Assembly (NCBI RefSeq): GCF_014077505.1
Contig: NZ_JACGWA010000001.1
Location: 496,001-560,000, forward strand
Origin: Colwellia sp. BRX10-3
GTDB taxonomy: Bacteria > Pseudomonadota > Gammaproteobacteria > Enterobacterales > Alteromonadaceae
DNA length: 64,000 nt
Direction: 5' to 3'
The position numbers and the translations under genes are program-made. Below the pieces are notes generated by a model that worked only from the letters and a program-made list of their open reading frames with translations, had not been told where the DNA came from and did no database searches. Position 1 is the stretch's first letter. The number at the start of each line of letters is the position of its first letter. Positions 1-54,847 of the stretch are shown in pieces.

Positions 1-2968
1 ATACGCCAGCGAAGATCACCACACCGATAACCATTCTGCTTTCAGCGCCAGGTCCTACCGCTAATACCAATGGAATAGCACTGGTGACTGTCGTAAAGGT
101 GGTCATTACGATAGGTCTTAAGCGTTGTGTGGCAGCAGCAATTAACGCCTCTTCAAACGCGATACCTTTGTCACGTAACTGATTGGCAAATTCAACAATC
201 AAAATACCATTTTTCGCTGCTAAGCCAATCAACATGACAATACCAATTTGACTGTATATGTTCAGGCTCATTCCCATGAGCTTAAGGCCAGCTAAAGCGC
301 CAACCAATGCTAATGGTACGGTTAACATAATAACAAAAGGGTGAATAAAGCTTTCAAATTGAGCCGATAAAACTAGGTAGGTTATAACAAGGGCTAGAAT
401 AAAAATAAAGCCAATAGAGTTACCTGATTCTTGTAATAACTGTGACTCACCTTTATAAGCTACTTGTACTTCTTCAGGTAAATGTTCAGCAACCGCACCA
501 TTCAAAAATTCCAAAGCATCGCCTAGTGCATAGCCTGTGGCTAAATTTGCGCTAATTGTAACACTGCGGAGACGGTTAAAACGATTGAGCTGCGATGATG
601 TTGCACTCTCTTCAATAGTGATTAAATTCGATAATGGTATTAATTTATTACTGACAGTGGAGCGAACAAAAATATTATCAATGTCTTTAGGGTTTGAAAA
701 ATCAGTTTTCTCGCCGCGCACAACCACATAATATTCTTCACCGCGTTCAACAAAGTTGGTGACTCTACGCTGTCCCAACATAGTTTCCAACGTACGACCA
801 ATATCACCAACCGATACGCCTAAATCAAAGGCCCTGTTGTGATCAATTTTAACCAGTAATTGCGGGTAGGTTTCTTTGTAGTCACTATCAATACTGTGTA
901 AATTCGGATTTTCTTGCGCTTTTGCAATAATAATATCACGCCATTTCGCTAATTCTTCATAAGTATTACCTTGTAATACAAAGGCAACGGGTGATGAAGA
1001 ACCTCCGCCACTTAAGCCACTGCGCATCATAGCAAAGGCTCTAACATCAGTAACTTGAGCCAGTTCGCCATTCATTTTATTAATAAATTCAAATGTATTG
1101 GTAATACGATCTTTCCAGGCTGGCATACCAACAATAGCAATACCACCCGTGCCACCAAAACCAGGTACTCGCACAATAACTCGGTCGAGTTCACCACTTT
1201 CTTGATGTACCAATAATTTTTCTTCTATTTGCTGCATATTTTTGACGTTATTTTCATAACTTGCCCCTTCAGCACCACGCATCATAACAAAGAAATTTCC
1301 TCTGTCTTCTTTAGGCGTGTATTCCGAAGGTAACTGATTGAATAAACCGTAAACAGCAAATAACGACAAAATAATAACAAGAAAGATCATCAGTGGTTGA
1401 TGAATACTAGCTTTTAAAGAGCGCCCATAAGCGGCTTCCAGTTTAGCAAAGCCTTTATCTAACTTTTGACCAAACGATGAGCTACGCTCCTTATGCTTCA
1501 ACATTTTTGAACACATCATTGGGGTGAGAGATAATGCAGTTAAACTAGAGAAAATTACCGCTGCAGCTATCGCAATAGCAAATTCTGTAAATAATCGCCC
1601 AACGTTACCCGATAAAAATATCAATGGTACAAACACGGCAACAAGCACTAACGTAGTAGCAATAACCGCAAACGCGACTTCTCGACCACCTTCGTATGCA
1701 GCTAGTAATGGAGTTTGTCCACGTTCAATTCTCCGGTAAATATTTTCCAGTACAACAATAGCATCATCTACCACCAAGCCGATGGCCAGCACCATTGCCA
1801 GTAAGGTTAGCAAGTTTATTGAAAAACCAAGCCACGACAGCACCATCATAGAGCCAATTAGCGCCACAGGCACCGTAACCGCTGGAATAAGGGTTGCTCT
1901 AACATTACCCAAAAACAAAAATATAACCAATACCACCATTAACATGGCGATACCGAGTGTGCTATAAACTTCATCAATTGAGCCTTGAATAAACACTGAT
2001 GAGTCATAACTATTGGTAATTGTTGTACCTATTGGCAGCCCACCACGAACCGACATCATTTCTTTACGAGCAGCTTTGACCACTTCAAGAGTATTGGCTT
2101 TTGACTGTTTAATAATGCCTAAACCCACCATGTTTTTGCCATTACCACGAAACATGTTTTCTTCATCTTCTGCACTCAAGGCTATTTTGGCAACATCACC
2201 CAGATAGACTAAAGATTTATTATCATTACGCGCCACCACCATAGTGGCAAAATCAGCTTCGGTTAAATAACTACGTTCAACTCGAATAGAAAAGTCTCGA
2301 TCGATTGATTCAACTTTTCCTGCCGGTAATTCAACATTTTCGGCTCGCAAGGTTTGTTCTATGTCATTAACCGTGACGCCTCTGGCGGCCATTGCTTTAC
2401 GGTTTAGCAACACATTCATGGCGTAGGTTCTTCCACCACCAACCTGTACACGCGCAACGCCGTCAACCACAGAAAACAGGTCAACAATATAACGTTCAGC
2501 ATAATCAGTTAGCTGCAATGTACTCATTACATCGCTTTGTAAAACAAACCAAACAATGGCACTTTCGTCATCATTTGCCTTAAAAACCTCAGGCGGTTCA
2601 GCTTGTTCAGGTAAGTTATTTAATGCCCGAGAAATTCTGTCGCGCACATCATTAGTTGCAGCGTCAATATTACGATCAAGGTCAAATTCAATAGAGATAC
2701 TAGAACGGCCAACGCGGCTGGTAGAGTTTATTGATTTAACCCCTTCAACGCCGCTAATTCTATCTTCAAGTATTTGCGTAATTTTACTTTCAACTATCGC
2801 TGCAGACGCCCCAGGATATGAAGTATTAATACTCACCACTGGTGGGTCAATATCAGGGTATTCTCGCAGAGGTAAAGTTAAAAAGGCAACAATGCCAAAA
2901 GTGATCAATAGTAAATTTATTACCGTGGCAAATACTGGACGTTTAACCGAGAGATCAGATAAAATCAC
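1..2968 (-). CDS. RND efflux pump permease (HAE1/AcrB-like), 3' end cut by window
   Basis: This is the inner-membrane proton-driven permease of a tripartite RND drug/solute exporter. About 989 residues are visible and the C-terminus runs off the left edge; the family is usually 1020-1050 residues. The N-terminus reads VILSDLSVKRPVFATVINLL, which is the cytoplasmic lead plus TM1 typical of these pumps. The TM4 motif GLVVDDAIVVLEN lies near residues 396-408 and carries the paired aspartates of the proton relay. The start is a GTG whose first bases overlap the TGA of the upstream adaptor (GTGA, 4 nt), so the two are translationally coupled. No outer-membrane TolC-type channel gene is adjacent. 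Membership of the HAE1 branch rather than the heavy-metal branch is inferred from the VVDDAIVV motif. Substrate is unknown. Confidence 0.93.
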   Translation of the reverse strand, partial: MILSDLSVKRPVFATVINLLLITFGIVAFLTLPLREYPDIDPPVVSINTSYPGASAAIVESKITQILEDRISGVEGVKSINSTSRVGRSSISIEFDLDRNIDAATNDVRDRISRALNNLPEQAEPPEVFKANDDESAIVWFVLQSDVMSTLQLTDYAERYIVDLFSVVDGVARVQVGGGRTYAMNVLLNRKAMAARGVTVNDIEQTLRAENVELPAGKVESIDRDFSIRVERSYLTEADFATMVVARNDNKSLVYLGDVAKIALSAEDEENMFRGNGKNMVGLGIIKQSKANTLEVVKAARKEMMSVRGGLPIGTTITNSYDSSVFIQGSIDEVYSTLGIAMLMVVLVIFLFLGNVRATLIPAVTVPVALIGSMMVLSWLGFSINLLTLLAMVLAIGLVVDDAIVVLENIYRRIERGQTPLLAAYEGGREVAFAVIATTLVLVAVFVPLIFLSGNVGRLFTEFAIAIAAAVIFSSLTALSLTPMMCSKMLKHKERSSSFGQKLDKGFAKLEAAYGRSLKASIHQPLMIFLVIILSLFAVYGLFNQLPSEYTPKEDRGNFFVMMRGAEGASYENNVKNMQQIEEKLLVHQESGELDRVIVRVPGFGGTGGIAIVGMPAWKDRITNTFEFINKMNGELAQVTDVRAFAMMRSGLSGGGSSSPVAFVLQGNTYEELAKWRDIIIAKAQENPNLHSIDSDYKETYPQLLVKIDHNRAFDLGVSVGDIGRTLETMLGQRRVTNFVERGEEYYVVVRGEKTDFSNPKDIDNIFVRSTVSNKLIPLSNLITIEESATSSQLNRFNRLRSVTISANLATGYALGDALEFLNGAVAEHLPEEVQVAYKGESQLLQESGNSIGFIFILALVITYLVLSAQFESFIHPFVIMLTVPLALVGALAGLKLMGMSLNIYSQIGIVMLIGLAAKNGILIVEFANQLRDKGIAFEEALIAAATQRLRPIVMTTFTTVTSAIPLVLAVGPGAESRMVIGVVIFAGV

Positions 2969-21977: not shown

Positions 21978-23570
21978 TCAAGAAAAATAGTCTTGCAAAA
22001 AAGTATCAAAATCCACTTTATCGCCCTGCTCAATCGCTGACTGTTTTTGTAATGAGTCTGCTACTGATTTGGTGAAGTATTCTTCGCTGAACTCTTGATA
22101 GTCATTGGCCAAAAGCTGTTGACGATACTCGACGGCCTTACTTAGCGCCAGTTTTGTTAAGGAATGATTTTCATTTACCACGGCCGCTAAAATTTGTGCT
22201 GAAGGTGTTAAACTCGCATCGCTAATTTTAGCTGCTTCCGCCTTAAGTACCTGACTGTATAACTGGCTATCGTTTGCTTGATCTAACAAGGTTGCAATAT
22301 CAGACATTTTAGCAAAGATTTCATTGCCCCATTGTTTAACAGATTTTTCTGCTGCGCTATTTTCTGCATTGTCGCCAGTAATGTCACGTAACAATAATGT
22401 CGGATCACGACCTCTTACTACCACTGCATCCATATTTTCTTCACTGGTTGCTTGTGCTTCGCAGTTAAGTATTGGGCTGGGTTCAAGCATACAAAAAGTA
22501 AGAAACACATCTAAAAATCTAACTTGTTCAACCGTAACACCTGTTGCTGAAAAAGGGTTAACATCGAGCGCCCTAACTTCAATATATTCAACACCTCTAT
22601 TTCTTAACGCTTCTGACGGCTTTTCACCGGCCTTAGCCACACATTTTGGACGAACTGGTGCGTATAATTCATTTTCTATTTGTAATACATTACTGTTAAG
22701 TTGCTGATATTTACCATCGACTTTGATGCCAATTTTTTCAAATTTTTTCGAAGGTAAATTGATGGCATTTTTCACCCCATCTAAATAACCCGATAAATTG
22801 TTATAGCAAATTTGCAACGACGACTGTTCGCTATTGGTATAACCTAAATCGCTCATCCTCAAAGAAGTAGCATGATCAAGGTACATGTAACCTTTATCCG
22901 TTTTTTTAAACGGCAGATCTGTGGGTTTATTTTTTAGAAATGAACCACAAATAGCCGGTGAACTCCCATATAGATAAGGGATCAGCCAGCAAAAGCGTTT
23001 GTAATTTCTTAATAGCGCAAAGTACTTATCAGAAATATAATCGTCAAGCCCATCAGTATTGTGCTCAACTTCTTGCATTGATTGAAAAAAGCTTTTCGGA
23101 AATGAAAAATTAAAATGTATACCTGAAATAACCTGCATCATGCTGCCATAACGATTTTTTAAACCTTGGCGATAAACTGTTTTCATTCTACCTATGTTAG
23201 ATTTTCCGAATTGCGCTAAAGGTATTTTATCGTCGTCATCAACAAAGCACGGCATACTCATTGGCCATAAAAGCTCACCATCAAGTTGGCTTAAAGTAAA
23301 TTTTTGCACATCTTCAAGTTGGGCAATAACCGTTTCAGGTTTATGACTAACAGGGGTGATAAATTCCATCAGGGTTTCTGAGTAATCAGTGGTAATATTG
23401 GGATGTGTTAACGCTGAACCTAATCGTTCACTGTGCGCGCGTTCAGACAAACGTCCTTGTGGCAACACTCGAAGTGCTTCACGTTCTATACCTCGACCCA
23501 ATTGGCTCAAAGAAGTTTGATGCTTTTCTTGAGCAAAAGCCTTGATATATTCGTTTAATGATAATGTCAA
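21978..23570 (-). CDS. gshA: Glutamate-cysteine ligase (proteobacterial type 1)
   Basis: This enzyme joins glutamate and cysteine with ATP, the first step of glutathione synthesis. The 530-residue product matches the E. coli type (518 residues) along its length: GRGIEREALRV near residues 23-33, DYSETLMEFITP (metal/ATP region), SGIHFNFSFP, and YIEVRALDVNPF. The start is TTG at 23570 with an AGGAAT box 6 bases upstream; there is no in-frame ATG nearby. It is monocistronic. It belongs to the glutamine-synthetase-fold superfamily, which also includes the odd protein at 51751-52854. Confidence 0.96.
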   Translation of the reverse strand: MTLSLNEYIKAFAQEKHQTSLSQLGRGIEREALRVLPQGRLSERAHSERLGSALTHPNITTDYSETLMEFITPVSHKPETVIAQLEDVQKFTLSQLDGELLWPMSMPCFVDDDDKIPLAQFGKSNIGRMKTVYRQGLKNRYGSMMQVISGIHFNFSFPKSFFQSMQEVEHNTDGLDDYISDKYFALLRNYKRFCWLIPYLYGSSPAICGSFLKNKPTDLPFKKTDKGYMYLDHATSLRMSDLGYTNSEQSSLQICYNNLSGYLDGVKNAINLPSKKFEKIGIKVDGKYQQLNSNVLQIENELYAPVRPKCVAKAGEKPSEALRNRGVEYIEVRALDVNPFSATGVTVEQVRFLDVFLTFCMLEPSPILNCEAQATSEENMDAVVVRGRDPTLLLRDITGDNAENSAAEKSVKQWGNEIFAKMSDIATLLDQANDSQLYSQVLKAEAAKISDASLTPSAQILAAVVNENHSLTKLALSKAVEYRQQLLANDYQEFSEEYFTKSVADSLQKQSAIEQGDKVDFDTFLQDYFS

Positions 23571-48380: not shown

Positions 48381-49529
48381 TTAGTTCTCTAGCAAGAAAC
48401 GTTCAAATATTACCAATGTTTTAGCAAAACTCCTTTGGCCTAACCCTAAACGAAAGTAATTCCCCTTAAGCCCGAACAACTCACTTGGCAACGCTAAAAT
48501 TCCACTTTGCTTGGCCAGTTTTTGTGACCAAGAAGTTATTGAGGTAATATTTCTAACCTCTACTAGCGCAAGGATCCCAGCCTGAGGTGCTTGCCAGCTT
48601 AATTTTTCTGGATGTCTGGCAATAAGTGCCGAGAAAAGCGTAATATTGTCGAGAATAACTTGATTGTTGAGAGCTAAAATATCTTTACTATTTTTTAATG
48701 CTAGACATGCTAATTTTTCATCTATTTTAGAGCAGCAAATAGAATTAACCGCTTTAATAGCAATGAGACTATGCCGTAAAGTATTATTAGTCGTAATAGC
48801 CCAACCAATACGAACTCCCGCTAAGCCTAAACTTTTAGACATAACACCAACCACAATACTTTTTGGGTAATCTAAATAACGATGCGCTAAAGCTAAACTG
48901 TGGTAATTGCTTGCTTGCGAAACATCGTCACTTAACAAATAACAATGATATTGCTGTGCCAATTGCAATATTTGATTGGCGAGATTGGTATCAATTGTAC
49001 TGCCGGTTGGGTTATGCGGAGAATTAAGCACGATAAGCCGGGTTTTCTCATTCACGAGTTGATTAAAGTCTTCAATGTTTACTTGCCAGTTATTTTCAGC
49101 ACAAAGTGCGATTTCTCTAACAGTAACCCCCATCAACTCTGCCATGTTCACCAAAGAAGGATAACTTGGTGTTAGTACAATAATTTCGTCGCCAGCACTT
49201 AACACGGTATGATAAATGGCCGATAGTGCTTCCTGTGCACCGCAAAATGTTACGGCGCTTTCAGCATCGATTATTCGGCTATGGCAGTTTAAATTTTTAT
49301 GAAAATCAACTATTTCTTGCCGTAAAAGCACATCGCCTTGAACCGGCGAATACTGCAAAAGTGTGTTACTAATACCAGCAATTTGAGCAGCATCAAAATT
49401 ATCAGTACTTAGCCGACATAACTGTTCAAGCGTCAAAGCTTGTGCGGTCGAATCACTTAAATTGTATTTAACATAGCTTGCTAGGCTCTGACTAAAAGCA
49501 ATGTGCTTGGGTAACATGTAAGTAGGCAT
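48381..49529 (-). CDS. Fold-type I PLP enzyme, candidate ovothiol C-S lyase OvoB
   Basis: The 382-residue product is a class I/II aminotransferase-fold enzyme. The PLP lysine is K232 in VMSKSLGLAGVRIGW, the phosphate/pyridine contacts are NSPHNPTG (N173) and SDDVSQ (D201), and the carboxylate arginine is in YFRLGLG. The usual DEVY is DDVS here, so it departs from standard transaminases. It follows ovoA after 58 bases on the same strand. Ovothiol synthesis needs a PLP lyase (OvoB) to cleave the 5-histidylcysteine sulfoxide made by OvoA, so that is the best role; it is inference from fold and position. Another aminotransferase role cannot be excluded. A second ATG at 49517 is possible. Confidence 0.82.
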   Translation of the reverse strand: MPTYMLPKHIAFSQSLASYVKYNLSDSTAQALTLEQLCRLSTDNFDAAQIAGISNTLLQYSPVQGDVLLRQEIVDFHKNLNCHSRIIDAESAVTFCGAQEALSAIYHTVLSAGDEIIVLTPSYPSLVNMAELMGVTVREIALCAENNWQVNIEDFNQLVNEKTRLIVLNSPHNPTGSTIDTNLANQILQLAQQYHCYLLSDDVSQASNYHSLALAHRYLDYPKSIVVGVMSKSLGLAGVRIGWAITTNNTLRHSLIAIKAVNSICCSKIDEKLACLALKNSKDILALNNQVILDNITLFSALIARHPEKLSWQAPQAGILALVEVRNITSITSWSQKLAKQSGILALPSELFGLKGNYFRLGLGQRSFAKTLVIFERFLLEN

Positions 49530-49587
49530 CGACTAGATATCCATTATTAAGTCAATGATCATGCTGATGCGCATATAAGTAGTCAAC

Positions 49588-51717
49588 TTATTTAGCTCGC
49601 CAAACACTGAGCTGACAGTGAGATAAATTAAAATTACGCGCTGAATCTGTAACAACTCGCGTTAATTCCTTTATAGAAACCGGTTCAAAGTCAGCATTAA
49701 GCTGATGGGTTAACGCATCAATACCTGATAAATTTTCGCCATTAACTTTCATACCACTGAGCCATTTAGATTTTTCTGTTGTCTGCAACTTATGGTTGTA
49801 ATCAGAAAGAATGATCAGTATACCTGACGGGTTCAGCCGACTTACGGCATTAGCCAATAAGCGCTTAGGATCATAGCTTTGTTCCAAAGCATGCTGGATC
49901 AAAATAACGTCATAGTGGTCAAAATTATCTTTAAGATTACAGCCATCAGCTTGACTAAATAATATCCGCTTACCATTTACATTATTAACCTTGTCAGCCA
50001 AAGTTATTTCATTATATTGGCAAATATCGCCTTCAATAGTGTTGGTATAACGAACACTTGCGCCAGTTTGCAATTGCACGCCGTATTGAATGGTGCGCGC
50101 TGAGAAATCTACAGCATCTATATGTTGAAAATGCTGGCTAAGTTCAAATGCTACGCGTCCAACGCTACAACCTAAGTTAAGTAAACGCTTAGTGCTGGCA
50201 TTTTCAGCCGCTATTACACTTGCCACTTTTTGTGCTATTTGCTGGCCGTAATTTTCGTAACCCAAGGCATTCACGCCAAAATAGCACTCAAGTTGCTGGC
50301 AAATGTCTTTACTTGTTTCATATTTATTAACCGTTACTGGTGAATTATTCGGTTGATTACTCACTACATAACGAAAACCTGCATGTTGATAAAAATGTCG
50401 GCGAAAGGCATAACGCGAAGAGGTCAAGGTTTCATTACCTGTAGACATCCAAGAGCCGCCTTTGATTAGATTATGTTTACCGTCAAAAGTTGGTGTCGAA
50501 AAGTCATCGTATAATGGGTGAACATTAAAACCAGCAAAACCATCAATTGCTGACTCAGTCCATTGCCAAGTATTACCAATAACGTCGAAGAAATCGCCAT
50601 TTTGGTGCTGGTTAACTGGGCATGAAGAGGCATAGTAGGCTAAATTAATATTACCTGGCACCTCTTGCCACTGGTGTTGATCACCACCAACATGCTCTCT
50701 AAGACAATACCATTGTGCTTCAGTGGGCAAACGAGTAAAACCTATCGTACTTTCTTGTCGCCACTGGCAGAACGCTTTCGCTTCTAAACAATTAACTTCT
50801 ACTGGCCAGTCTAACGGTAATAGCATTTCGCTTGCTAAATTGCGCTGATAATATTGGCCAGCACTACAAAACCAAAACCTTGGCATTTTAGCTTGGGTAA
50901 ACTCCAACCATGCAAGGCCTTCTTGGCACCAAAACTGCTTTGACTGATAGCCGCCCGCTTCAACAAAGCCCATGTACTCATGATTAGACACTAAAAATTT
51001 AGCCGCACTAAAGTCGTCAACATCTACCGATTGGTGACCATATTCATTGTCCCAACCAAAAGTATTGTCTTGTGCTTTTTTGCCCAAAGATAAGGTTTGA
51101 GACTTAACCGGAATTAATTCGTTTTCTGGTGCCACCGATGAATGCAAGCAAGGCTGCCATTGTTCAGTATTTGTTAGCCATTTTAATGGCAACATACGCA
51201 TAATAACCGATGATGTTTCAAGGTGAATGCGCTCGTGCTCACAGCCCATCAAAATGATCCATGCTAGCGAGTCTTGCTTGATCGGCAAACTCAACTCCAT
51301 GGTATCAATCAAATCTAACACTAGGTTGTATACTTGTTCACGATAAGTCCTAACTTCATCAACGTTTGGCCAGTCATAATGCTCACTATTGAGATCATCC
51401 CAACTCATTTCATCGACACCAACTGCACAAATAGCCTCTAATCGGCTGTTAATGCGTTGATTGATGTATTTTCCTAGGATCAATTTATTGACATAGAAAG
51501 TCGCAGTATGTCCAAAATAAAAAACCAACGGATGTCTTAACGACTCTGGTCTTAAGAAGTAAGCATCGTCATTATTAATAAGGGAGAACAATGACTCATA
51601 GGTCGACCAAGTATTTTTAAAGTACGCGGTTAACTCTTGTCGCTTTTCTGCTATCGAATTGCCATCAAGTGTTGGCGTATTTAATTGATTTATCATGTAA
51701 TTTTCACTAAATATCAT
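49588..51717 (-). CDS. ovoA: Bifunctional OvoA: 5-histidylcysteine sulfoxide synthase / 4-mercaptohistidine N1-methyltransferase
   Basis: OvoA joins cysteine to carbon 5 of histidine with O2 and Fe(II), and its C-terminal domain later methylates the imidazole, giving ovothiol. The 709-residue product has an N-terminal DinB-like domain with the metal histidines H70 (YFGHTATFY) and HERIHLE (H161, H165). The formylglycine-enzyme-like domain ends in GGSWMSTGNETLTSSRYAFR and HAGFRYV (about residues 415-450). The Rossmann methyltransferase has RLLNLGCSVGRVAFEL (about 510). Length matches known OvoA. An internal ATG at 51696 (MINQLNTPTLDG) is an equally good start; neither has a strong ribosome-binding site. 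Confidence 0.94.
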   Translation of the reverse strand: MIFSENYMINQLNTPTLDGNSIAEKRQELTAYFKNTWSTYESLFSLINNDDAYFLRPESLRHPLVFYFGHTATFYVNKLILGKYINQRINSRLEAICAVGVDEMSWDDLNSEHYDWPNVDEVRTYREQVYNLVLDLIDTMELSLPIKQDSLAWIILMGCEHERIHLETSSVIMRMLPLKWLTNTEQWQPCLHSSVAPENELIPVKSQTLSLGKKAQDNTFGWDNEYGHQSVDVDDFSAAKFLVSNHEYMGFVEAGGYQSKQFWCQEGLAWLEFTQAKMPRFWFCSAGQYYQRNLASEMLLPLDWPVEVNCLEAKAFCQWRQESTIGFTRLPTEAQWYCLREHVGGDQHQWQEVPGNINLAYYASSCPVNQHQNGDFFDVIGNTWQWTESAIDGFAGFNVHPLYDDFSTPTFDGKHNLIKGGSWMSTGNETLTSSRYAFRRHFYQHAGFRYVVSNQPNNSPVTVNKYETSKDICQQLECYFGVNALGYENYGQQIAQKVASVIAAENASTKRLLNLGCSVGRVAFELSQHFQHIDAVDFSARTIQYGVQLQTGASVRYTNTIEGDICQYNEITLADKVNNVNGKRILFSQADGCNLKDNFDHYDVILIQHALEQSYDPKRLLANAVSRLNPSGILIILSDYNHKLQTTEKSKWLSGMKVNGENLSGIDALTHQLNADFEPVSIKELTRVVTDSARNFNLSHCQLSVWRAK

Positions 51718-51750
51718 TATAGTTTGGCGTAGTGAGTAAAAGCTAAAGCT

Positions 51751-52854
51751 TTAAAGTATGATACTAGGCCGTTGAAATTGTTTTAAATAATTATCTTTTA
51801 ATAATTGCCCGGTGCTTGACTGAGTATTATTTTCGCCTTGATAGTTTGTCGCACTGAGCGCTTTATCAATACTTCGGCTGAACCAGTCATTATTGGCAAA
51901 TAATGTAATCGCACCTATATGATGCTGTTGGTCATGTAACGAGCTGGGTAATTGCCCATATTCTTCGCTCTGCACTTGTTGGTTATTTTCTCTATCATCA
52001 ATAGCGTCAATCACGTTCAACAAGGCGAAAATCACGTTCAAATACGGGTTATAATGCTCGCTAGATGCACCTAGCCTATGCTCAATACGGGTTGTTTTAT
52101 GCCAATTATTTTCGCTGATAATGACATTGTTTTTATCATCATATATTAGTGGTTCAACCCCCATTTTTTGATTGTGTTTACCAATATCTCGATATAACGC
52201 AATACTGCCTTGATGACCGCCGGAAATATCTACTGGCGAACACAACTCTTCTGCTAAGCCATATTTCGACTTTAACGCTAAACGCTCAAAAGCTTCTTCT
52301 TCGGGTAAATAAATTAAGCAGCAAGCTAAACTTGTGCGTAAAAAATGCTGCTGCAAACATTCAGCAAAACTACCCGAAACAAGTAAATTATTGCCGATTA
52401 AATCCTGCACACTAACATTAATTTGTACCGCGTTCGGTATGTGAACAGCACGGTTATCGCCACTAAAAATGTTTTCGCATCCAGCAGCTAACTTGCCATA
52501 ATCACCAGCCCAAACCACAGGCTTTATCAGGGTTTTTGTTACCCCTTGTTCAGCAAAAAGTTTTGGTAGTACATAAATAGCACGATGCAAGTTTTGCGCT
52601 TCTTTTAATGGGCTTTGGCCATTAAAAATTGAAACATACTCCCACTGGTTACTCCAATATTCAGCAACCACTTCGCCGTCAATTCCCAGCGCTAATAATT
52701 GCTTATTCACTTGCCTATAATCTATTTTCTTACCAATTGGTTTTTGATAACACCCTTCTAGTTCAAAGTGTATTAATGCACGAAACCCACGTTTATTAAT
52801 ATAATCCTGTAAACTCAAAATTATGGCTTCTGAGAGCCTATTTAAACTATTCAT
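51751..52854 (-). CDS. Divergent glutamine-synthetase-fold protein next to ovoA
   Basis: The 367-residue product resembles the glutamine synthetase catalytic domain in order: HFELEG (29-34, E31/E33), EYWSNQWEY (65-73, like EVxPGQWE), RAIYVLPKLFAEQGVTKTLIKP (91-112) and RIEHRLGASSEHYNPYLNV (256-273). The N-terminal beta-grasp domain is missing or very short, and the histidine expected near NAVQINVSVQDL appears to be glutamine. It may therefore ligate an amine other than ammonia or have lost the reaction. The ATG at 52854 is preferred over an upstream TTG. It lies 33 bases before ovoA on the same strand, so a link to ovothiol metabolism is likely but unproved. Confidence 0.78.
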   Translation of the reverse strand: MNSLNRLSEAIILSLQDYINKRGFRALIHFELEGCYQKPIGKKIDYRQVNKQLLALGIDGEVVAEYWSNQWEYVSIFNGQSPLKEAQNLHRAIYVLPKLFAEQGVTKTLIKPVVWAGDYGKLAAGCENIFSGDNRAVHIPNAVQINVSVQDLIGNNLLVSGSFAECLQQHFLRTSLACCLIYLPEEEAFERLALKSKYGLAEELCSPVDISGGHQGSIALYRDIGKHNQKMGVEPLIYDDKNNVIISENNWHKTTRIEHRLGASSEHYNPYLNVIFALLNVIDAIDDRENNQQVQSEEYGQLPSSLHDQQHHIGAITLFANNDWFSRSIDKALSATNYQGENNTQSSTGQLLKDNYLKQFQRPSIIL

Positions 52855-52987
52855 AATGGACAAATGCTTGAACTTTGATATTACGTTTAACCTTGAACAA
52901 TAATAAACCTTATAGCCAATTTACAAACAATTAGTACTGGGTTTAAATTATTTATTACTTGTTATACGTAACAATGATGGTTTTGGA

Positions 52988-54847
52988 TTAAAAAACATTA
53001 ACTTGATTTTTACCTAAGTGTTTTGCTTGATAAAGTGCTTGATCGGCGTTGATATATAATTGGTTTACATCTTGGCATTGCTCAGAAAATGCTGCAATGC
53101 CAATACTAACAGTTACAATGTCTTTATGGCCTTTAATCATTGCTGATGTGTTAGTTAAAGCTAAAAATCGCTGAGCAATTTTTGTTGCTTCAATAATATT
53201 TGTTCTAGGTAAAATACACAAAAACTCTTCACCTCCAATGCGCCCAAAAATATCGTCTTGGCGAAAAATATCTCTTCCCACTGCCGCAATCTTTCTGATG
53301 ACTTCATCACCAATAGGATGACCGTAATTATCATTTACTTTTTTAAAGTCATCAATATCAATTAAGATAACCGACAATTTCATCTTTTCAGGATGACTAG
53401 CTAATACAGCCGTATGTAGATAATCAAAAATATACCGTCGATTAAATAAACCCGATAAAGAGTCTTTTATTGATAATAAATGCATTTTTTTATTTGTTCG
53501 GTACTGTACGGCAATAACAATGAGTACAATCAGGATTACGCAAATGATAAAAATATTAAAATAAATTTGTAATATACTGCTGTTTTTTCGTTTCTCTAGT
53601 TCGAGCATTTCAACTTCTGATAGTTTCTCTGCCAGGTTTTGTGCTATTTGCTGACGTTCGCCTTCCATTCTCGCCCTCACCTTTAGCAATCTATCAGATG
53701 AATTTTTTAGTAATAATGCTGTATATTCAAGATGATATTGCTTAAGCATGCCATAACTAATACCGAACTGACCACGCGCATACGCTAATTCACTTGATAT
53801 TTTTATCACTTCAAGTTGCCAGGTTGTTCCTATTAACTCTGGAATATCGGCAAAAATATTTGCCGCGTTAAACAGTGCCTCTTCAGCTTCTTCGAGTCGC
53901 GCTAGTGTAATTAAACAACTTGCTTTACGTTTATATAATTCGGCATTGTAATCAATAACACCTTTTAGGGCTAATGCCTCATCAATAACAGCAATAGCAT
54001 CAAGACAATCACCTTTTTCAGCTAATGTCATACCAAGACCATAAGTTGCAAAAAAGCTAATATTTGAATTGGGGGTATAACCAATTTGTTGTTTATATTT
54101 TTCAAAATATTCAATGGCTAAATCATATTTCTGCCAATATCGATAGGTTGATGCTAGCCCATAAATAGCTTCGGCAATATGGGCTGGGTATTTTAAATTT
54201 TGATAGGCTTCAAAAGCTCTTTGATAATACTCAATGGATTTTTTATAGTCATTTAAGTAACCATAAATAGCACCATAAGTTTCGTTTATGGAGGCAATTA
54301 AAAACTGATCTTTTATGGCAAATGCTTCGACATAGGCTTCTTGAATATCGTCTAATGAAGTGTCAAATATTTCGGTAAGGGTTTTTGTATAGGCAAGTTC
54401 TTGCTTTGTGAATATGTACAAGCTGCTTAATTTAACTTCTTTCGCCTGCATTAAAGCTTTGACGAGTGCTTCTTGAGATAATCTATAATTGCCCTGTCTA
54501 CGATGGATAAGACCTTGAAATAGACTTAAACGCGCTTGAATAGCTAAAGGCGTTTTAGCGTTAACTAAGGCGTTAGCTTGTTCAACCGTGCGATTAAAAT
54601 CATCATAGAAGTAAATGAGGTTCTCTGCTTGGGCTTTACGCAATAACCACCAAAGGTATGTTAGTTCATCATATGATTGAGCCGCTAACTGCAAGCCGAC
54701 GAGTTTTTGATAAGACTGCCAAGGCTCTAGATATATGGGATGATCCATGTTAATAAAATTAACACGATCATCCGCTATTGTAGCTACAGGAAAACTTAAC
54801 AATAGTATGATTAAAGTTGCACAATAAAATTGCAAAGCTTTTTTCAT
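52988..54847 (-). CDS. TPR-containing membrane diguanylate cyclase (GGDEF)
   Basis: The 619-residue product has a signal peptide (cleavage near TIADD, residue ~26) and a large periplasmic region of tetratricopeptide-like repeats (about 90-380). A coiled-coil, one membrane segment (IFIICVILIVLIVIAVQY, about 430-450) and a cytoplasmic GGDEF domain follow. The active site is GGEEF (538-542), and an RxxD inhibitory site (RQDD, 529-532) lies five residues before it, so it should make cyclic di-GMP with product feedback. The TPR domain probably senses a protein or peptide in the periplasm. It is a single gene. YajQ in this window is a possible c-di-GMP binder. Confidence 0.93.
   Translation of the reverse strand: MKKALQFYCATLIILLLSFPVATIADDRVNFINMDHPIYLEPWQSYQKLVGLQLAAQSYDELTYLWWLLRKAQAENLIYFYDDFNRTVEQANALVNAKTPLAIQARLSLFQGLIHRRQGNYRLSQEALVKALMQAKEVKLSSLYIFTKQELAYTKTLTEIFDTSLDDIQEAYVEAFAIKDQFLIASINETYGAIYGYLNDYKKSIEYYQRAFEAYQNLKYPAHIAEAIYGLASTYRYWQKYDLAIEYFEKYKQQIGYTPNSNISFFATYGLGMTLAEKGDCLDAIAVIDEALALKGVIDYNAELYKRKASCLITLARLEEAEEALFNAANIFADIPELIGTTWQLEVIKISSELAYARGQFGISYGMLKQYHLEYTALLLKNSSDRLLKVRARMEGERQQIAQNLAEKLSEVEMLELEKRKNSSILQIYFNIFIICVILIVLIVIAVQYRTNKKMHLLSIKDSLSGLFNRRYIFDYLHTAVLASHPEKMKLSVILIDIDDFKKVNDNYGHPIGDEVIRKIAAVGRDIFRQDDIFGRIGGEEFLCILPRTNIIEATKIAQRFLALTNTSAMIKGHKDIVTVSIGIAAFSEQCQDVNQLYINADQALYQAKHLGKNQVNVF

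Follow-up and report, generated by a model that had tools for sequence, protein, structure and literature searches.

We analysed a 64,000-nucleotide stretch of the Colwellia sp. BRX10-3 genome (contig NZ_JACGWA010000001.1, forward-strand positions 496,001 to 560,000; here called the window), in which the gene for OvoA is directly preceded by a member of an orphan gene family whose product is predicted to fold like glutamine synthetase (GS). We propose that the product of this GS-like gene is a carboxylate-amine ligase of the GS superfamily, dependent on ATP and metal and dedicated to the OvoA pathway, where it conjugates 5-thiohistidine, a reading to which we give a probability of about 0.5. 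A fuller version holds that the whole OvoA-dedicated family produces N-conjugated thiohistidines, gamma-glutamyl ones for example, and that the OvoA methyltransferase now takes the conjugate as its substrate; it is more tentative and falls somewhat short of an even chance. The proposal draws on the pairing of the two genes across genomes, a predicted GS fold with metal-type carboxylates, a near-intact OvoA sulfoxide-synthase domain, and an OvoA methyltransferase domain that is remodelled or absent. The locus occupies positions 48381-52854 of the minus strand. The open reading frames (ORFs) and their spacing agree with an original prediction made from the sequence, which described three minus-strand genes in the order GS-like protein, OvoA and pyridoxal phosphate (PLP) enzyme, with gaps of 33 bases between the first two and 58 bases between the last two.

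The GS-like gene is closely tied to OvoA. Among 147 genomes of the family, representing 52 genera, 43 carry the GS-like gene and 53 an OvoA above its cut-off; each of the 43 GS-like genes immediately precedes OvoA on the same strand, and ten family OvoAs stand without one. The gene is missing from all 94 family genomes in which no OvoA passes the cut-off. A GTDB-wide scan by short peptide patterns, which distant members may escape, matched 112 stretches, of which 72 were confirmed, giving 70 loci; these loci and the family sample share genomes. OvoA adjoins the GS-like gene in 68 of the 70 loci, in the order GS-OvoA in 63, in the order OvoA-GS in four, where the genes abut or overlap by a few bases, and divergently in one. 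At the exceptional locus L124 the sequence stops at a contig break, and OvoA begins at base 13 of another contig of the same genome. The closest named relatives are Colwellia species (86% identity of the GS-like protein to that of Colwellia sp. MB02u-6), and further members occur in records of Paraglaciecola, Psychromonas, Hyphomonadaceae, Robiginitomaculum and Rickettsiales. The pair persists despite changed gene order. The conserved co-occurrence with ovoA on which the original prediction had made itself dependent is thus seen in both surveys. The trees of the two proteins disagree on the Hyphomonadaceae locus L137, whose GS-like protein groups with L139, L142 and L143 and whose OvoA groups far away with L144; long branches make this discordance tentative. 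In a class-wide sample of 369 genomes OvoA was found in 19 and the GS-like gene in two (the window genome and one family member); with 17 of the 19 OvoA genomes devoid of the gene, GS-free OvoA is the common form. The plasmid records searched contained no match to the GS-like gene. Fisher P values, for the pairing as well as for the domain comparison below, take no account of relatedness.

Two structure models relate the protein to glutamine synthetases. The AlphaFold2 model of the window protein, built on a 35-row alignment, reached a predicted local distance difference test score (pLDDT) of 86.7 and a predicted template-modelling score (pTM) of 0.89. Its best Foldseek matches in the PDB were glutamine synthetases (E 4.2e-12, probability 1.00), with 115 chains at E<=0.001, and the best 50 of the longer list were all GS or relatives such as gamma-glutamylmethylamide synthetase. 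The Robiginitomaculum member L142, which is 39% identical to the window protein, gave a model with pLDDT 88.8 and pTM 0.91, the best match of which was the GS homologue 4HPP (E 1.1e-11, probability 1.00, query TM-score 0.65; 155 chains at E<=0.001). Both models open with a helix, followed by the strand that carries E31 and E33. A GS-type catalytic fold is supported by these predicted structures.

Sequence comparison barely detects this relationship. The window protein matched no Pfam family at E<=1, gave one sub-cut-off match in NCBIfam (E 0.19) and none among PDB sequences at E<=10; a profile of its family retrieved two chance-level PDB matches (E 1.1 and 2.3). PF00120 (Gln-synt_C) was matched neither by the window protein nor by any of 35 homologues, which together touched 11 Pfam families, each in one member, with a best E of 0.011 and no GS family among them. 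Acetyltransferase Pfam families also gave no match. When the host genome was searched with PF00120, the single place found was GlnA on another contig, and both blastp and hhalign align the RIEHR block of the GS-like protein with this GlnA. Against GS, hhalign alignments were weak but collinear (P 0.001-0.015, probability 3-22%). The longest paired GS-like residues 2-337 with GS residues 98-447 (P 0.001), using a GS set that was partly contaminated, because it took the longest ORF per locus and apparently the wrong frame for some GlnA paralogues. A run with GlnA only aligned residues 5-340 (P 0.015), and a clean repeat with a GS set collected by phmmer aligned residues 146-325 (P 0.0024) and, separately, the region of the E31/E33 strand (P 0.051). 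Control profiles of glutamate-cysteine ligase (GCL), GCS2 and OvoA gave P values of about 0.5, 0.2-0.3 and 0.28. Since the longest alignment begins at GS residue 98, the N-terminal domain appears to be absent. The GS fold claimed in the original prediction is therefore borne out by both models and remains invisible to sequence profiles, and its claim that the N-terminal beta-grasp part is lost agrees with the weak collinear alignment and with the helical start of both models. A reading as phosphagen kinase was set aside, as such kinases are not known to have the GS glutamate pattern.

The residues that would form a GS-type active site are strongly conserved. Across 71 sequences (the window and the 70 loci, counted among rows with letters at each position), 33 positions are invariant, including E31, E33, E65, E72, H138, N141, Q144, N146, S148, R191, K226, R256, E258 and R260, as well as W67, Q70, W71 and P140; H259 is replaced by F or Y in a few sequences. 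E31/E33, E65/E72 and the RIEHR block (256-260) were found where the original prediction had put them. Equivalence of these residues to those of GS rests on sequence register, not on coordinates. By hand register, Gln144 and Asn146 fall where GS has its two histidines, which fits the earlier suggestion that the usual catalytic histidine has been lost. R191 aligns by hhalign with the arginine of GS 'YKRL' (R321), a ligand of the glutamate carboxylate. On our hand register, the invariant set covers the five metal carboxylates and the glutamate-binding arginine. The relatives found in family genomes share 43-76% identity, and omega of the GS-like gene was 0.05-0.17 in the 10 pairs, out of 11, that allowed its calculation, several of them with saturated dS; the ORF is thus a real gene under selection.

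OvoA itself differs according to whether the GS-like gene is present. We compared 64 gammaproteobacterial GS-linked OvoAs (63 loci and the window) with 25 GS-free OvoAs, nine of the ten from the family and 16 from the class; L061 (genome G032), which lies inside the linked clade, was left out. Columns were called fixed when conserved in at least 95% of the GS-free set and lost when retained in less than 10% of the linked set. In the sulfoxide-synthase domain 3 of the 140 fixed columns were lost and two more fell below half, and H62, H70, H161 and H165 were kept in each aligned row with a letter there. In contrast, the methyltransferase domain lost 11 of its 59 fixed columns, with nine more below half (11/59 versus 3/140, Fisher P = 1.2e-4). 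The lost residues (Y475, F478, L610, D612, R613, P639, T641, L643, F687, T692 and H698) fall in the QYxxF, NLIDRL, SPYTxL and PFVIRETxRKxQH blocks, and in the solved OvoATh2 (8KHQ), OvoM (9BXL) and OvsM (9BXH), as read by eye from the alignments, they are present in 32 of 33 cases, the exception being L643, an arginine in OvoM. Compared with these three proteins, a GS-free methyltransferase domain scored 257-265 bits and that of the window 113-153. Motifs for S-adenosylmethionine (SAM) are retained, with G520, D537, D591 and N594 in 64 of 64 linked OvoAs and G516 in 63. The domain is still under purifying selection, its omega being 0.05-0.12 in eight linked pairs. None of the 11 signature residues is kept in 51 of the 64 linked OvoAs, and the other 13 keep one or two; these counts restate the column comparison, as the columns were chosen for differing. 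Independent support for the change comes from the contrast with the other domain and from the presence of the residues in the solved OvoM, OvsM and OvoATh2.

The alphaproteobacterial partners go further. In all five, OvoA stops at or soon past the first domain (frames of 467-575 residues); the four that were scanned matched TIGR04344 above its cut-off and left TIGR04345 unmatched, and L143 was judged by length. No above-cut-off TIGR04345 protein was found elsewhere in these five genomes, which are metagenome-assembled genomes (MAGs).

One position of the sulfoxide-synthase domain also follows the GS-like gene. Position 175 (window 51193-51195, minus strand) is Q in 25 of 26 OvoAs that have no adjoining GS-like gene, the 26th being L061 with M. 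All 69 GS-linked OvoAs, which span separate lineages, carry a different residue, M in 63, L in one and E in five; these rows are 68 loci and the window, L124 and L145 having given no OvoA row and the larger piece having been used for L120. Of the five fixed sulfoxide-synthase columns that fall below half in gammaproteobacteria, 175 is the only one that also differs in every one of the five alphaproteobacterial OvoAs.

These observations can be assembled into a pathway. The OvoA sulfoxide-synthase domain would couple histidine and cysteine in the usual way, as its near-intact state suggests, and a PLP-dependent C-S lyase would then free 5-thiohistidine. Next, we infer, the GS-like enzyme would activate a carboxylate by phosphorylation, most probably that on the gamma carbon of glutamate. 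Acyl transfer to the alpha-amine of 5-thiohistidine would then yield an N-acyl (gamma-glutamyl) 5-thiohistidine; glutamate is favoured as the phosphorylated substrate because R191 is invariant at the presumed carboxylate-binding arginine. In gammaproteobacteria the remodelled methyltransferase domain would finally methylate this conjugate instead of free 5-thiohistidine, and in the alphaproteobacterial members the methylation step would be gone. A remodelled or missing domain suggests that methylation of free 5-thiohistidine has been given up, and a GS-fold ligase placed between coupling and methylation would explain both domain patterns of OvoA. The core idea of the original prediction, that a GS-fold gene adds a step, is thus strengthened as far as an extra ligase step is concerned, by pairing and fold; the bond and the substrate given here are proposals. 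Its premise that OvoA and a PLP lyase make ovothiol A here fares less well: a role of the PLP enzyme as OvoB is plausible, and with methyltransferase residues lost, and the domain absent in five alphaproteobacterial partners, the product may not be free ovothiol A.

In the strongest rival, which we nevertheless consider rather unlikely, the ligase would activate the carboxylate of 5-thiohistidine or ovothiol and use ammonia, an amine or an amino acid as the acceptor, yielding a thiohistidine amide or dipeptide. It shares the fold and pairing evidence, and a changed methyltransferase acceptor is equally expected from it. The missing N-terminal domain and the probable replacement of the flap glutamate, the latter read from a hand alignment, suggest that the nucleophile is not ammonia, as it is in GS. 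The invariance of R191 in 71 sequences, at the place of the arginine that binds the glutamate carboxylate in GS, instead favours glutamate.

Less probable still is action of the ligase before OvoA, converting histidine to its amide or to gamma-glutamyl-histidine, which OvoA would then sulfurise. The GS-like gene comes first in the gammaproteobacterial loci (63 of 68), the substitution at position 175 separates all 69 linked OvoAs from 25 of the 26 others, and histidine amide and histamine are reportedly 5-sulfanylated by OvoA (PMC9103826). However, the sulfoxide-synthase domain has lost just 3 of its 140 fixed columns, with 175 the sole below-half column changed in all of the five alphaproteobacterial OvoAs, and the gene order is reversed in four loci.

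That the protein is a pseudo-enzyme or chaperone, binding OvoA or thiohistidine as scaffold, sensor or protector and making no bond, we regard as very unlikely. The hand-aligned loss of the usual catalytic histidine would fit such a role, and the change at OvoA position 175 could mark an interface. In contrast, the metal-type carboxylates and RIExR are invariant in all 71 sequences, even in L144 and L145 with their 25% and 24% identity to L142, and omega is 0.05-0.17.

More improbable again is an EgtA-like gamma-glutamylcysteine ligase that feeds OvoA gamma-glutamylcysteine, as in the mycobacterial ergothioneine route. GCL is a member of the GS superfamily, and the spacing of the four glutamates resembles that of the Escherichia coli enzyme. 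Yet the genome has its own GshA within the window (PF04262, E 2.5e-164), and no profile similarity to GCL or GCS2 was found (PF04262, PF04107; hhalign P 0.2-0.5; no Pfam match). GCL is also missing from the best 50 Foldseek matches of either model, and the sulfoxide-synthase domain is that of a typical OvoA. That the GS-like gene is a chance neighbour of OvoA, passed on in Colwelliaceae through synteny, is hardly credible: in close relatives the surroundings (GGDEF, glutaredoxin, FAH) are largely syntenic too, but the pair stays together in other surroundings, extends to Paraglaciecola, Psychromonas and the alphaproteobacterial lineages with its order reversed in four loci, and the gene occurs in none of the 94 family genomes devoid of an above-cut-off OvoA.

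Several points weigh against a dedicated ligase conjugating 5-thiohistidine. The fold comes from predicted structures whose query TM-scores of 0.50-0.65 and root-mean-square deviations of 5-11 Å indicate a distant GS relative, and sequence similarity to GS is very weak at the hhalign values given above. The metal histidine of GS and probably its flap glutamate are replaced on the hand register, so that a pseudo-enzyme is possible. L145 (MAG G536) has the GS-like gene and no OvoA detected at E<=1e-40. Conversely, G032 (L061) has an OvoA of the linked clade with a changed methyltransferase and no GS-like gene; its upstream GGDEF gene is kept, with 366 bases between this gene and OvoA, and the GS-like gene is therefore dispensable for the persistence of OvoA.

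The altered methyltransferase may also be decaying rather than retargeted, that is, either its acceptor has changed or the domain is on its way out. It is looser in linked OvoAs, where 95% fixation is reached by 32 of the 242 columns, compared with 60 in the GS-free set (for the sulfoxide synthase, 188 of 444 versus 140). It also evolves faster relative to the sulfoxide-synthase domain, the ratio of dN between the two being 0.9-1.9 in eight linked pairs versus 0.6-0.8 in three GS-free ones. Judged by conservation, the changed residues would contact the acceptor, and the change at position 175 could mean that the sulfoxide-synthase domain, too, now works with another partner or substrate. Independent cases are few, amounting to about one gammaproteobacterial event and one or two domain absences, and because the five alphaproteobacterial genomes are MAGs the absence of a methyltransferase from them is weak evidence.

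Known systems offer partial parallels. With the GS family (GlnA, gamma-glutamylmethylamide synthetase, 1-naphthylamine GS, 4HPP) the GS-like protein has in common the predicted catalytic fold, the order of carboxylate motifs, and RIExR followed by NPYL. It differs in having no PF00120 match, no N-terminal segment of about 100 residues, a glutamine read at the histidine position (hand register), 11-17% identity among the Foldseek matches listed, and a gene that adjoins OvoA. EgtA and the gamma-glutamylcysteine ligases are likewise GS-superfamily ligases linked to sulfur transfer onto histidine; their profile similarity to the GS-like protein is undetectable, and GshA is encoded separately. OvoATh2 (8KHQ) has the sulfoxide-synthase domain and overall architecture in common with the window OvoA, whose methyltransferase does not have the signatures (QYxxF, NLIDRL, SPYT, PFVIRETxRKxQH) that mark GS-free OvoA, OvoM and OvsM.

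A close precedent is the 5-thiohistidine N-acetyltransferase (5THNAT) of Bacteroidota. According to PMC12631010 its gene adjoins that for OvoA, its substrate is 5-thiohistidine rather than ovothiol A, and in some genomes it accompanies a shortened OvoA that has no methyltransferase domain. Both systems thus place an extra enzyme beside OvoA, in some cases with no methyltransferase; modification of 5-thiohistidine was shown there and is proposed here. 5THNAT is a GNAT acetyltransferase using acetyl-CoA, whereas the GS-like protein of Proteobacteria has a predicted GS fold and is presumably driven by ATP. Some OvoA-like proteins that have no methyltransferase domain have been published before (PMC9103826).

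Features of the locus are collected in Table 1. We take the ATG at 52854 as the start of the GS-like gene; the longest mechanical start is an in-frame TTG at 52863. The window OvoA scored 651.4 bits with TIGR04344 (cut-off 400) and 234.5 bits with TIGR04345 (cut-off 170). For the PLP enzyme, an aminotransferase-class protein, none of the best 25 of 103 NCBIfam matches exceeded its own cut-off. It is a putative OvoB-type C-S lyase, a role made likely by the 30% identical enzyme that adjoins the GS-free OvoA of L075; similar genes adjoin 27 of the 68 GS-linked OvoAs.

Table 1. Genes, domains and candidate active-site motifs of the OvoA locus (window positions)
Feature	Position	Strand	Remarks
GS-like protein, 367 residues	51751..52854	-	Orphan family adjoining OvoA; GS fold predicted by AlphaFold2 and Foldseek
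E31-x-E33 (HFELEG), place of two GS metal glutamates	52756..52764	-	Collinear by hhalign with GS 'GPEPEFF'
E65-YWSNQW-E72, second metal-type glutamate pair	52639..52662	-	Matched by hand to GS 'EVATAGQNE'
HIPNAVQINVS (138-148), place of GS 'NGTGMHVHQS'	52411..52443	-	Register by hand
RIEHR (256-260), counterpart of GS 'RIEVR', then NPYL	52075..52089	-	blastp and hhalign versus host GlnA
OvoA, 709 residues	49588..51717	-	TIGR04344 and TIGR04345 above cut-off; 8KHQ E 1.7e-215
OvoA sulfoxide-synthase domain, residues 14-451	50365..51678	-	Conserved
OvoA C-terminal methyltransferase domain, residues 466-707	49597..50322	-	SAM motifs kept; 11 GS-free-fixed residues replaced
PLP-dependent fold-type I enzyme, 382 residues, probable OvoB-type C-S lyase	48381..49529	-	PF00155 E 8.2e-46
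TPR and GGDEF protein, upstream neighbour	52988..54847	-	Synteny; not argued as pathway member

In Colwelliaceae the GS-like gene often has the TPR-GGDEF gene immediately ahead of it, and a similar gene precedes OvoA in G032, which has no GS-like gene. GshA (glutamate-cysteine ligase) is encoded at window positions 21978-23570 on the minus strand, about 25 kb from the locus (PF04262 at 22422-23543), and the strain therefore probably makes glutathione as well. In the Rickettsiales MAG of L139 (2451-3983) a MurE-type ligase (TIGR01085, 332 bits, above cut-off) directly follows the OvoA-GS pair. In two Robiginitomaculum MAGs (L142, 7140-9312, and by look L143) the pair is followed by a class III aminotransferase and a gene resembling 3-keto-5-aminohexanoate cleavage enzyme (below cut-off). 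As pathway parts these genes were left unused, being seen in one lineage each. L144, where the OvoA-like gene is divergent from the GS-like gene, comes from a MAG titled 'Rickettsia typhi isolate MoE-02may19-87', a name that looks doubtful. In Colwellia maritima (L120, 7146-9321) OvoA is split over two overlapping ORFs by a frameshift or a sequencing error.

Among the matches listed in a search of the open-access literature, subscription literature being outside it, none linked ovothiol or thiohistidine biosynthesis to a GS-like protein; in the accessible part of PMC9103826 the sole mention of 'glutamine synthetase' is the title of a reference on mycobacterial glnA.

Ovothiol is a natural antioxidant, and bacteria are usually named as its producers because they carry ovoA. 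If the product is a conjugate, this assignment would fail for most OvoA carriers of the family sample (43 of 53), and many Colwelliaceae and Paraglaciecola taken as ovothiol producers would make a different, undescribed low-molecular-weight thiol. The extra ligase together with a remodelled or lost methyltransferase would serve as a sequence marker separating two kinds of OvoA. Were the proposal true, it would add a further class of 5-thiohistidine chemistry, with an undescribed thiol and ligase family, and Colwellia-type marine bacteria may thus make an unknown relative of ovothiol.

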